Below are positions 23,067-29,114 of a stretch of DNA of 54,024 nucleotides, piece after piece. Position numbers and translations under genes: made by a program. Each line of letters opens with the position of its first letter. The first letter of the stretch is position 1. A model generated the notes under the pieces. It was given only the letters and a program-made list of their open reading frames with translations, was not told where the DNA came from and ran no database searches. This DNA comes from Glutinoglossum americanum (taxonomy: Eukaryota; Ascomycota; Geoglossomycetes; Geoglossales; Geoglossaceae), in assembly GCA_020080175.1 (NCBI GenBank), contig JAGHQL010000182.1, positions 1-54,024 on the forward strand. Reading direction: 5' to 3'.

Positions 23067-26000
23067 CTACTCTAGCTTCAACTTTTCGAAACGCTTGATG
23101 CTCTCTACGTAATTGTGTGCCTCCGCCTCGAAGTCCGCGAGTTTCTTCCGCTCAACCTCCTGCAACTCCTTGCTGACTTTCTGTTGGTATGCGGGATCAC
23201 TAAGGATCTTCTTTTGACGTTGTGCACCATCGGTGGCTTTCAGCAGCTTTGTCTGAGCCTTGGCGATTTCGGCGTCAATGTCCACGCGGCCCTTAGTGTG
23301 TTGTTAGTGTTTTGTTTTAGCCGTTTATATTTGCACGACTGTGGTTGGGTGCATACCTTGATGTGTAGAAATACAGCTGCACTACTTGAGATAGCAAAAA
23401 AGGCACAGCCCATTGGTTTCTCTTGGTCTCCTGCTATGACCTCTATGGATGCTACTCCCTTTCCGGATAGAGACTTTATGCTTTTAATTTGTTCCCTTAC
23501 AGTCTTGGAACTTGTGTCATCGTAGGTCTGGACATAGACTGTTCCTACAATTTAGCTGGGGATGCTTATCTATTGGCTTGGTGTATAGGCTCACCTTTTC
23601 CTTCATCTTTGAGGGAATACTCTGCCATTAAAGAACGCACCCCTTTTGATATCCCCACGATGAGCTCATAAGCGGCTTCGGATGCGGGATCATCCATATT
23701 TGTGTTGTATTCTGGGTATGCAGCTTTGACGATTGATGGTGTTGAGTCATTTGGCCGACGGGGAAGGCGCTGCCACAACTCCTCGGTAAGGAAAGGCATA
23801 AATGGATGGATCATCGTCAATGCGCCTTCGAGAGCGGTATACAGTGTATCTTTTGCAGACCGCTTCTCCTCTTCAGTTCCGTCTTGAATGATCGCCTTGG
23901 AGTTTTCCTGTTGCACGCGTAAGTATACGAGGGCGGAGCCGGGTGTTGGGATACCGGAACTTACGATGTAGACATCGCACAGCTGATTGTACCAGTACTG
24001 GTAGACAATTAAAGTGGCCTGCTGGAACTCTCGGTCCTCCAGGGCTTGATTTATTTCTTTCGCAGCGATCGTGTACTTGTGCAAAATCCACCGTTCTGTC
24101 AGCGACTCCTTGCCAGTCTTCTGGTCCGATGCCTGCGGCACAAAATCTTTCCCCAGTTTCCCAAGGACAAACTTGGTTGCCTGGTAGATTTTGTTGCAGA
24201 ACTTCCGATAGCCATGGAGCACTTTAATATCAAAGTTGATGTCTCCCCCTATTATATTAGTTAGTTCCGCAGTCGTATCAAGTAAGAGAAGAAGTGGGGT
24301 TTTTTTTTTACCTCCCCCAGTAGTGTATGCAACGAGCGCGAAACGCAAGGCATCCGTGCCGCATTGCGGAATGCCGTCGGGGAAAGCTAACTTCTGAAAA
24401 TTCTCCGCTTTCGCAATCTCGTTTTTGGGCAAGTTCCCTGATCTTAGCTTGGAATGCAATTCCTCCAAAGAAATTCCTTGGATTACATCCATGGGGTCGA
24501 TAACGTTTCCCAATGACTTCGACATCTTCCGGCCATCCGAATCACGGATGAGAGGGTGACAGTACACCTCCTTGAATGGTACCTGTCCCGTAAGCTTGAT
24601 GCCCAACATTACCATGCGAGCCACCCAGAAGAACAGAATATCCCACCCGGTCTCGAGGAGAGATGTTGGATACAGACGAGCCATATCCGGAGTTTCTTTT
24701 GGCCAGCCGAGAGTCGAGAAAGGCCAGAGTCCGGATGAGAACCACGTATCTAAAACATCAGGATCTTGGTGTAGGGTAAACTTTTTATTAGGAAAGTTGA
24801 CTTTTGCTTTCTCTTCCGCAGCTTCAGGCGTCCTTCCTGTCACCCAGAATTTATCCTCGCCCCTGTTTCCAGGCTCCTCTCCTTCGAGTTGAACAAAATA
24901 CGCTGGAGCTTGGTGGCCCCACCAGAGCTGCCGAGAGAGACACCAATCGTTTATTCCCTCAAGCCAATGGAAGTAATTTTTCTCAGCGGATTCGGGACGA
25001 ATCTTGATGCGCCCATCCTTCACTGCCTTGATCGCATCGTCCGCCATATCCCTCATTTTCATCCACCATTGAGGCTTCATGAGTGGCTCAATGATATCCC
25101 CCGACTTGCCGCATAGAGGTACCACCATTTTATTTTCTTCTGTTTTGACATACAGCCCCTTTGCCTTCAGATCCTCTATCACCATCCTTCTCACGTCAAA
25201 TCTCTTCTGCCCATTATAGGGGCCCGCGTTCGCGTTCATTGTGCCATCGTCATTGAGGATGTTTATACGTTTTAGGTTCTTGTAACGCAAGCCAATAGCA
25301 AAGTCATTCGGGTCATGCGCTGGCGTAATCTTGACCGCACCGGTCCCAAAGTTCATGTTGACATATTCGTCCATAATAATGGGCATCAGGCGATCAGTGA
25401 TGAAAGGATGCTTAGCGAACTTACCCTTGAGGTGCGTGTACCGTGGATCTTTGGGATTTACTGCAATTGCAACGTCCCCAAGCATTGTCTCAGGCCGGGT
25501 AGTGGCCACCTCGATTTTCTCGTCGGATCCATCGATTTCGTAGAAGAAATGTACAATGATTCCAAACTCTACCTTCTCGTCATACCCTGGCACGGCTAGA
25601 AGCGTAGGCTCCTTCAGCTCCACGTTCACCACCTCGAGGTTTGAGATGGCCGTATTAAGCTTCACAGACCAATTGACAAGACGGTTGTCGCGGTAGATAA
25701 TTCCTTCTTCATGTAAACGAACAAATGTTTCCGTTACGGCAGCCGAGAGGTTCGGGTCCATAGTGAACGCTTCGCGCTTCCAGTCGAAGGAGCCTCCCAT
25801 CCGCCGTAACACGCTGTTGATCTCTGCGTGGTAGCTACATAGTCTGAGCATTCTAAACCTTCGTCCAGCTTGGTTCCAACTTACTCGTTCTTCCAGTCCC
25901 AGATCAACTCCGTAAATTTCTCTCTTCCGAGGTCATACTTGGTCTCCCTTCTATCTTTCCATAGTTTATTCTCGACAACACTCTGGGTTGAAATACCGGC

Positions 26001-26913
26001 ATGGTCGCAGCCGGGGAGCCACAGAACTGTCTTCCCTTTCATGCGATTCCTAAACCAATTGTTAGAGATGCTTAGGAATGGCGTATGAAGAGTCCGTACC
26101 ATCTTATCAGACAATCTTGTAAGGCGTTAGGCAGGGCATGCCCCATATGTAAGCGCCCGGTGACGTTTGGCGGAGGTTCGGGGATCACAAAGTATCCCTC
26201 CTCCTTAACTTTCTCGTCGGGCCCAGCAAACTCGGGCTCGAAGAACCCCTCTTTCTCCCACCAATCATACCATGCTGACTCTACGATGGTGGGGTTGTAT
26301 GCCTTGTATAGTGGATCATCGAACGGCTTGAGGACTAAAGATATTGGTTAGAGCACTAATCCAGACTCACAGTTGCTCAAAGGAGGAGATACTTTTCTTG
26401 TGACCTTTAATTGTCTCTTCGACAAATTTAGGTAGAGGTTCCTCCTTCGTCCCTAGTTTACTCTTCTTCTCTTTAGACTTCGAGATAGTTGGAGCGGCCG
26501 CAGTATTTGCACTTTTAGCTTGTTTCTCCGCAAACTTCTTCGCTTTTTCGGCTTTCTTCCGCTCTTTCTCCACTATCTGAATGTTAATCCGGCAATCCCA
26601 TTTTATTCCTCGATTGGATATAGTGGATAATCTGACATTCTTTTTCTGTCTTTGCTTTCTTCCCACTAGCGCCAGGTTCGTTTCTCTGTTCGGGAGCTAC
26701 AGCAATAGTACGGTGTTGCCCAGTTGAATCAGCGTTCGGAGTATCGGTAATTGCGGCTTTGGTCTCATCGGACTTAGAGATTGGTAGTCCAGAGATAGGA
26801 CCAGCTCTCTCTCCAACTGTTGGCAGTAGTGCCTATTAGTCGGACGCATTTAACCGTCAGAGAAGCAACTATTGGGCCATACTTGGATTGCTAGATGTAG
26901 AATTGGTGGCCAT
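23067..26913 (-). CDS. VAS1: Valyl-tRNA synthetase (cytosolic form; mitochondrial form probably from an upstream non-AUG start)
   Basis: Class I aminoacyl-tRNA synthetase that charges tRNA-Val. The first AUG is at 26911-26913 ([10 protein letters not shown]), followed by an intron with acceptor near 26817 and a charged N-terminal appendix ([20 protein letters not shown] after a second intron). The HIGH motif appears as GRLHMGHAL (near 26130), the KMSKS loop as [10 protein letters not shown] (near 24510). The CP1 editing domain lies between them ([23 protein letters not shown]). The anticodon-binding domain and C-terminal coiled coil end [13 protein letters not shown]. Late introns: one at about 23538-23595 (joins SLKDEGK to TVYVQTYDD) and one at about 23288-23355 (joins VFLHIK to [11 protein letters not shown]). 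The gene follows CKA1 on the same strand. Filamentous fungi usually serve cytosol and mitochondria from one VAS1 gene. Confidence 0.95.
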
Positions 26914-27069
26914 AATCGCGGATCTTTGGGATCCTTTGATCGTGGGGGTAGGAGAACGAGTAGGGATGAAGGGGTGAAACAGATTGGGTCTAGAGCAAGC
27001 TGCTCTTGTCAAATAGAGCGAAGCGCGCAAATGCAGCGCCCTAGAAAGTATTTTGGTGGTATGCCCCAG
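26914..27069 (-). other. VAS1: Putative non-AUG-initiated mitochondrial presequence of valyl-tRNA synthetase
   Basis: The frame of the VAS1 start stays open upstream of its AUG for 65 codons, to a TGA at 27109-27111, and contains no ATG. A CTG at 27067-27069 has A at -3 and G at +4, a strong context. From it, 52 codons lead into the AUG with 6 Arg, 2 Lys, 6 Ser and no Asp or Glu, for example ILSRALHLRASLYLTRAA. That is the composition of a mitochondrial targeting peptide. Established parallel: yeast VAS1 makes both isoforms from two AUGs, and yeast ALA1 and GRS1 start their mitochondrial forms at ACG and UUG. That CTG is used here is inference. Confidence 0.6.
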
Positions 27070-27711
27070 GCTACGGTCGTTGTGCGGATGGTGTTTCGGT
27101 GCTGGAAGTCAAGTCTGAGTCACTTAGCGAGGCTGAAAAAAATCACACGCTCGTCTTCTGGCTCGCAGTATCATGGATTGGGAAGCTGGAGAGCCAAAAC
27201 AACATGGTCAATTATGTACTAAGAGGTAAATGAATTCCCAATAGTAACAATTTTCGGCACGGTCACTGAAATAGAACAAATGTATTGATGCATTGCTCAA
27301 TTTTGTACTGGTAACTTTAGGCGGCTATGCACCCCTTTAAAGGTGCCGCTGATCTTTCTTCTGAGGTGCAATTCTACAGCCACCACCTCTGCGTGCCGCA
27401 GCTGTTGCTATTTCTTGGCTTAAGCGCACAAAGTCGCTCTATAAGAGACACAAGCTATGGTAATATGGTACGTCCGTGCTGGCAAAGGAGTATTTGTGGA
27501 TGGTTAAGATTAGAGATTCGAGCAGAGCGTTGTACGGGGATGTGTGAACGGTGTGAAAGGCTGACAGCGGGCATTGGTATCGAGAGGTTGTCTCCTAGAA
27601 TGGGACTACCGTTGATATTTGTGATCACAGTTCAACGGGGTTCAGCCACGAGTCCACAAACACTTCATGTGATGTGCCGGAAATGCTAGAAAATAGTCTA
27701 GGTCAAATGAG
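27070..27711. other. Intergenic: VAS1 promoter and CKA1 3' flank
   Basis: About 640 bp between CKA1 and VAS1, both minus strand. It should contain the CKA1 terminator and VAS1 transcription start. The plus-strand frames here have no recognisable domain. Confidence 0.5.
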
Positions 27712-29114
27712 CTAAGACATAGATGGGTTGTGATTCTGTGCCATAGCAGCATCGCGGATTGGCGCGAAGTAGGGATGAGCCATTGCTTCTTTCGCTGTTA
27801 AACGTTCCTAGAATGGAGGAATTAACAAGACCTACTCTACGAGAAAAACACTTTTATGGTAGCTGGTGCTCACCTGATGATCATATCTTAATAGCTTGTC
27901 CAAGAAGTCGATCGCCTCGTTGCTCACAAATCGTTGATTCTCTGAGTTGACAAATCCGTGCCAATTCTTTTTGGGAAATCTACCTAGTATATCGTCGTAT
28001 TGTACGTCGAGTTCGATATCGTACTTGTCTAGGTAGTCAAATAGGTCCTCCGTCCCCAAGACCTTTGCAATCTTCACCAGCTGGTCAGAGTTGCTGTTGC
28101 CGTGGAAAAAGGGCTCCTTGCGGAAGATCATTGATGCGAACATTGCGCCTAGAGACCACATATCCAGGGAGTAATCATATTCTTGGAAGTCCACCAGAAG
28201 CTCTGGGCCTTTGAAGTACCGAGATGCAACCCGGACATTGTATTCGGTCCCTTGGTGATAGAACTCCGCAAGGCCCCAGTCGATCAACCGTAGCTACAAA
28301 TCTGCAATCAGCTTCAGCCTCGTAGATTTGTATTGACTGTGTGACTCACCTTTCTCTTCTCATGGTCGATCATGACATTGTGAGGCTTAACATCCCTGTG
28401 CATTATGCCCTTGCTGTGGCAGAAATCCAAGGCCTAATAATCCACAGTTGCGTCAGTAGCTTCTCAATAGGCCTTAGACACTGGAAACATGCCTTGAGTA
28501 GTTCAAATATATAGTATCGGACGTCGCGGTCACCGAACTTTGGGTATAGGCTCCGGAAATCCGTGTTGTTCACATACTCAAATATTAGGGACGGCGTTTT
28601 ACTCTGTGTGGCGGGCAATTCCAAACTGTCAGCAGTCGAATCTCACAATTCCCGATAGCGTTCCGTCCCCAGACATAATCCGGTAAACCCATTCTATCTA
28701 GTGATGACCTGTCTGTGAGATGGGTAGACGAAAGAGCGGAACTGACTTGACTGTCTCTGACGACATCTAAAAGCGCAACAATGTTTGGCCCTCCAGACAG
28801 ATTCTGTAATATTTTGATCTCTCGCTTTATCTTCTTTTTCTTGACCGGCTTGAGAACTTTGATAACACATTTCTGATAGTTGGTGACGTTTATGCCCTCG
28901 AACACCTCGGAGTACTTCCCTCTGCCTAGAAATCTCGAAGAAATCACTTCGTCAGTAAAGAGCGATCTCAGCGAGAATAGACTAAGAGAAATTACCTACC
29001 TATCTTCCTAACGACCTCGTAGTTCTCTAATACACCCCATGAAATATTCACGCCATCGTAGTCCCAGTACGACCTTGGCATTTGCTGGTTCACATCTGCA
29101 TATACGCGCGCCAT
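27712..29114 (-). CDS. cka1: Casein kinase 2 catalytic subunit alpha
   Basis: CK2 alpha Ser/Thr kinase, 334 residues, the usual length. Start ATG at 29112-29114 ([20 protein letters not shown]). Six exons total 1,005 nt in frame; introns 28926-28999, 28604-28746, 28434-28492, 28294-28349 and 27808-27873. Motifs: Gly-rich loop [11 protein letters not shown], basic substrate cluster [12 protein letters not shown], catalytic loop [17 protein letters not shown] (the CK2-specific DWG in place of DFG), basic [15 protein letters not shown]. The C-terminus is [11 protein letters not shown]. Intron 28434-28492 has a GC donor (AAG then GCATGT), the only junction that yields [15 protein letters not shown]2 acts constitutively as a tetramer with beta subunits. 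The gene is divergent from RPP1 across 356 bp. Confidence 0.97.
28434..28492 (-). other. cka1: GC-AG intron in CKA1
   Basis: The exon ends CTCAAG, the intron begins GCATGT and ends TTATTAG (59 nt). No GT donor nearby keeps the invariant CK2 sequence ELLKALDFCHS in frame. GC-AG introns are about one percent of fungal introns. Confidence 0.8.

Follow-up and report, generated by a model that had tools for sequence, protein, structure and literature searches.

A candidate CUG start for the mitochondrial form of valyl-tRNA synthetase apparently encoded by a single gene in Glutinoglossum americanum

In Saccharomyces cerevisiae, the mitochondrial and the cytosolic valyl-tRNA synthetase (ValRS) are reportedly encoded by one gene, VAS1, a result ascribed to Chatton and co-workers in 1988. 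The two isoforms of the yeast enzyme are started from separate AUG codons.

Dual-localised fungal synthetases that possess a near-cognate codon upstream are termed DualNCC in the main account of PMC7049704. According to that account, LeuRS of Cryptococcus uses ACG and ArgRS uses AUU, near-cognate codons are found in different synthetases in different fungi, and the substitution between a weak AUG and a near-cognate codon seems to have occurred several times among fungi. The same source describes a poor start followed by a strong one in Cryptococcus synthetases, with the unfavourable U at -3 being noted, and both leaky scanning and alternative mRNA starts are described for these genes (PMC7049704). 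In S. cerevisiae, near-cognate starts are given for ALA1 (ACG) and GRS1 (TTG) (PMC2909995). Near-cognate starts are also conserved in the N-terminal extensions of cpc-1 in Neurospora and other Pezizomycotina; these include CUG and AUU codons in near-optimal contexts as well as an ACG that has A at -3 and G at +4, and conservation, ribosome profiling and in vitro translation all speak for them (PMC5487733). Dual-localised synthetases with a non-AUG start are thus already established. Since the general principle has been published, as the main account of PMC7049704 indicates, the VAS1 gene discussed below would be an added example and not a new idea. No description of a CUG-started ValRS was recognised among the literature matches listed, a set that consists mostly of titles and the openings of abstracts.

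The window, which denotes the whole stretch of 54,024 nucleotides of G. americanum DNA that was analysed, contains on its minus strand a gene that is, as identified by its family match and translation, a full-length valyl-tRNA synthetase (VAS1). The coding region (23067..26913, minus strand) consists of 10 exons in a gene model that was built by hand and combined with the match to the valS family. Introns 1-5 were placed by hand at 26882-26817, 26636-26573, 26392-26335, 26099-26050 and 25884-25835, and introns 6-9, likewise placed by hand, at 24311-24249, 23964-23908, 23594-23545 and 23356-23292, all on the minus strand. The translation of the model, free of internal stops, is 1107 residues long and shows 57.7% identity over an alignment of 994 columns to a yeast VAS1 sequence entered by hand. 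The match to TIGR00422 (valS) amounts to 762.6 bits, with a curated cut-off of 612.1. The AUG assigned to the cytosolic isoform (26911..26913, minus strand) opens the 1107-residue model and is situated in the context GCGATT/ATGG, with A at -3 and G at +4. No tRNA genes were found in the window.

A profile search of the organism's own assembly with PF00133 matched seven contigs, all 16 of the first-look candidates having been scored. Their best NCBIfam models assign three loci as isoleucyl, two as leucyl and one as methionyl, with a single valyl locus, that of the window; the pieces scanned were parts of genes, and the curated cut-off of the best model was passed only by the valyl, the C76 isoleucyl and the C35 leucyl loci. 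By best NCBIfam model, the isoleucyl loci reside on contigs C76, C251 and C195 (a broken copy), the leucyl locus on C35 is of archaeal type as expected of a cytosolic enzyme, that on C268 is of bacterial type, and the methionyl locus is on C288. The search with TIGR00422, in which 4 of 17 candidates were scored, agrees on one valyl locus. A separate mitochondrial ValRS gene, which the initial annotation had named as a finding that would speak against dual isoforms from VAS1, was searched for and was not found in the 317-contig assembly by the PF00133, NCBIfam and TIGR00422 searches. With VAS1 as the sole ValRS gene found, a mitochondrial isoform derived from VAS1 is expected. The C268 leucyl and C288 methionyl loci presumably encode mitochondrial enzymes, and on this interpretation translation in the organelle seems to be active. 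We also note that the second isoleucyl-like copy, present besides the C76 gene at C195:4701-8287 (L006, L007) on a contig of 20.6 kb, is broken by in-frame stops.

Upstream of AUG 26913, the VAS1 frame stays open over 65 codons (27108-26914, minus strand) and holds no ATG; the coordinates and counts given for this stretch in the initial annotation were confirmed. Frame inspection places its upstream bound at an in-frame TGA (27109..27111, minus strand), and a contiguous in-frame upstream AUG, the trait of the DualAUG class, is absent between stop 27111 and AUG 26913. The open stretch contains 11 near-cognate codons, the first of which is the CTG at 27067..27069 (minus strand; context CGTAGC/CTGG), the candidate near-cognate start of the mitochondrial isoform. 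This codon alone among the 11 combines A at -3 with G at +4; the combination, which had been claimed for it earlier, was found to be correct and is the same at the downstream AUG. The 52 codons from the CTG to the VAS1 AUG (26914..27069, minus strand) form a putative mitochondrial presequence, open and ATG-free, that would read LGHTTKILSRALHLRASLYLTRAACSRPNLFHPFIPTRSPTPTIKGSQRSAI. The earlier charge count held on recounting, with eight Arg/Lys and no Asp/Glu. The first-ATG contexts of the genome (n = 53) comprise 14 A, 17 G, 13 T and 9 C at -3 and 10 G at +4. No clear Kozak consensus emerges from these 53 contexts, perhaps due to many misassigned starts in the set, and the “good context” of CTG 27069 was therefore judged by the rule of other fungi.

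For the leader started at CUG, the hydrophobic moment amounts to 0.24, or 0.26 when Leu is placed first, which is near the 0.28 of the yeast VAS1 leader. The RNA structure predicted near the CUG is not unusual (z about -1). No Pfam family was detected in the extended N-terminal part of VAS1 at E 0.1, and a search for a second copy of the VAS1 5' region for comparison returned the region itself as the sole match.

Four sister synthetases of the same genome, AlaRS (L047, contig C303), GlyRS (L048, contig C101), HisRS (L049, contig C90) and CysRS (L050, contig C271), were compared with VAS1. All four of those examined possess an in-frame upstream AUG, followed by a leader and then by the AUG of the main body, and in all four the -3 position is U at the upstream AUG and a purine at the downstream AUG. 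The leaders of the Ala, Gly, His and Cys enzymes span 50, 51, 38 and 27 codons and contain 9, 12, 5 and 3 Arg/Lys, respectively. Codon usage favours the true frame in three of the four leaders (Gly, His and Cys), and the hydrophobic moments of the Ala, Gly and His leaders are 0.46-0.58. The Ala and Gly synthetases are each represented by a single locus in the genome. The exon matches of the His and Cys genes are below the whole-family cut-offs; the His search gave two weaker matches, on C5 and C115, and the assignment of the first HisRS exon is based on its sequence, while the leucyl locus on C35 also matched weakly in the Cys search. ArgRS was located in the genome as well, its 5' end lying outside the four-gene comparison. 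The succession of a weak AUG, a leader and a stronger AUG corresponds to the one described for Cryptococcus synthetases (PMC7049704), and the dual-localised synthetases of this genome perhaps follow it as a common rule. The sister leaders all directly precede their purine-context AUG, and VAS1 thus fits the pattern, with CUG in the place of the weak AUG.

Comparison with S. cerevisiae VAS1 reveals the same enzyme by family model and, as it appears, the same use of a single gene for two compartments. This is in contrast to the arrangement of the starts, where the yeast gene has an AUG for each form and the gene described here lacks a contiguous in-frame upstream AUG.

The features that the locus shares with the DualNCC class, as set out in the main account of PMC7049704, are one gene, an in-frame, presequence-like extension upstream of the cytosolic AUG, the lack of a contiguous AUG and a well-placed near-cognate codon. 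It differs in that the enzyme is ValRS and the candidate codon is CUG. The DualAUG class, which includes ValRS and other synthetases of Cryptococcus (PMC7049704, main account) as well as the Ala, Gly, His and Cys enzymes of this genome, resembles VAS1, with its presumed leaky upstream start, in having such a start, a leader and a strong AUG. Unlike these genes, VAS1 is without a contiguous upstream AUG, and a spliced one is possible. The cpc-1 genes of filamentous fungi (PMC5487733) similarly carry near-cognate codons in frame with extensions; in contrast to VAS1, they code for a transcription factor and the extension does not serve targeting.

The mitochondrial ValRS most likely starts at CUG 27069, which would have taken the place of a weak AUG in an exchange of equivalent leaky starts, and we assign a probability of about one half to this reading of the sequence. 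VAS1, the sole ValRS gene, would yield two isoforms, in which the cytosolic enzyme would be started at AUG 26913 and the mitochondrial enzyme at the in-frame CUG 27069, with the addition of a basic, acid-free presequence of 52 residues. The cytosolic form would be produced by ribosomes that pass the CUG, or from shorter mRNAs with a 5' end downstream of the CUG, for which the pyrimidine-rich stretch directly 5' of the AUG could act as a promoter element. If the mRNA began between 27171 and 27069, an interval of some 100 nt, initiation at the CUG would avoid the upstream AUGs 27205 and 27174. For a VAS1 that lacks an upstream AUG, a start at CUG is the simplest interpretation, and the repeated substitution between weak AUG and near-cognate codons among fungi, as described in PMC7049704, makes it a natural one. 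The initial annotation had proposed that dual isoforms arise by leaky scanning past a CUG. Its dual-isoform part is strengthened by the single gene, the presequence-like extension and the context of the CTG; mitochondrial targeting by the extension, use of the CUG and the manner in which the isoforms would be divided, by leaky scanning or by two mRNA start sites, are inferred. There is also evidence against a CUG-started leader. Its moment of 0.24 is below those of the Ala, Gly and His leaders and below the value of 0.55 obtained for the spliced leader described below, and an acid-free leader is not a rule among the sisters, of which only Cys has 0 acids (Ala 1, Gly 1, His 2). Moreover, the leaders of all four sisters start at AUG, and the CUG in VAS1 would therefore be an exception.

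If the CUG start is true, the mitochondrial isoform of an essential enzyme of this fungus would escape any automatic annotation that requires an AUG. The genome would in that case also offer an internal contrast between four weak-AUG leaders and one CUG leader, in which the isoform ratio could be related to the strength of the start codon.

The extension may instead have stayed open by chance within a promoter or leader rich in C, with the mitochondrial ValRS derived from elsewhere, i.e., from a gene missing from the assembly, by import without this presequence, or from a start whose AUG was lost to sequence error; we consider this improbable. The chance that 65 codons stay open, previously estimated at about 4 percent, is 4.2% by the mononucleotide composition of the window. 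The local stretch is rich in C (36%) and poor in G (17%), and of 20,000 dinucleotide shuffles of this stretch 15% are open and 8.5% are both open and ATG-free. The 52-codon part stays open in 3,549 of 20,000 shuffles; among these, Asp/Glu is lacking in 4.8%, and lacking together with at least eight Arg/Lys in 1.3%. The hydrophobic moment of the extension is reached by 37% of the same 3,549 open shuffles, and the helix measure of the extension is therefore not special. At least 65 open codons precede the first ATG in 11 of 49 long ORFs, a control that is confounded since many of these ORFs are internal exons, and a control with all 7495 ATGs on both strands of 244 kb was preferred as background. 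In the latter, 379 ATGs (5.1%) are preceded by 65 open, ATG-free codons, and nine (0.12%), VAS1 included, show the open ATG-free frame together with the charge pattern. One of the eight other pattern-bearing ATGs was inspected; its own frame ends 16 codons later and another frame is open for 402 codons, so that this one looks accidental. The pattern is uncommon (about 1 in 800 ATGs) but not extraordinary, and it also arises by chance. Codon usage adds no coding signal in the extension, with per-codon values of -0.146 in its own frame, which is no better than the other two (-0.122 and -0.113), and the assembly, which is in 317 contigs, may be incomplete. These observations favour a chance frame. 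They are opposed by the finding of no second valyl gene, yet of a bacterial-type leucyl gene, by the leaders in the same position in all four sister genes examined, and by the rarity of the joint pattern among ATGs. The main support for a presequence comes from the identity of the gene.

No non-AUG start would be needed if the presequence began in an upstream exon at the weak AUG 27174, which has U at -3; such a spliced exon, which the initial annotation had named as a finding that would speak against its proposal, is a less probable alternative to the CUG. As it stands in the genome, AUG 27174 opens a frame that reads MILRARRRACDFFQPR (27124..27174, minus strand), in the VAS1 frame and closed by TAA 27126-27124. 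A candidate intron of 78 nt (27071..27148, minus strand; GTGTGA...CCGTAG) would link this exon to the extension immediately ahead of the CTG, and its removal would eliminate two in-frame stops to give MILRARRRA-LGHTTKILSRALHLRAS.... The splice search considered every ATG from 27700 down to that of VAS1, each combined with one intron of about 40-400 nt. Automatic training of intron signals on 244 kb by motif counts and codon bias gave no usable signal, and the scoring was therefore trained, with leave-one-out, on 14 hand-placed introns, nine from VAS1 and five from the upstream neighbour. Of the 21 in-frame models with a spliced AUG, to which slightly different limits add one that scores 10.8, the three best (13.1, 12.8 and 11.7) use AUG 27174, and the intron 27148/27071, with 12.8, falls in the low part of the range of the 14 real introns (11.1-21.7). 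An equally good model is nevertheless present in 55% of 3000 shuffles of 27400-27109, and the splice signals are therefore no evidence for this start. The donor at 27148 is weak (3.0, with real donors at 1.0-10.1 in leave-one-out), four other AGs occur inside the intron before the acceptor at 27071, and AUG 27205, which has A at -3, is situated 31 nt upstream of 27174, so that either the mRNA start would be confined to some 30 nt next to 27174 or AUG 27205 would have to be passed by ribosomes. The features of the start and the leader argue for it. The U at -3 is found in all four sisters as against 13 of the 53 first ATGs, and the spliced leader, with 12 Arg/Lys, no Asp/Glu and the higher moment mentioned above, resembles the Ala, Gly and His leaders. 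By criteria chosen post hoc, an equal splice score with a comparably basic start occurs in just 8% of the shuffles, and in 2.4% when U at -3 is added. It is also conceivable, though quite unlikely, that the extension is real and is started at another in-frame near-cognate codon, with CUG 27069 as mere leader. Ten further such codons are available in the open frame, for instance CTG 27036 with G at -3 and ATA 27051 with A at -3; all of them are preceded by CTG 27069, which alone has the favourable bases at both positions.

An out-of-frame upstream AUG ORF of 20 codons is located at 27143..27205 (minus strand), with A at -3 and with its AUG upstream of both candidate starts. With an mRNA that begins further upstream, this ORF could repress both candidate presequence starts. 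The upstream neighbour of VAS1, which we take to be casein kinase II alpha-like, contains an apparent GC-AG intron at 28434-28492 on the minus strand (GCATGT...TTATTAG), and the other 13 hand-placed introns are of the GT-AG type.
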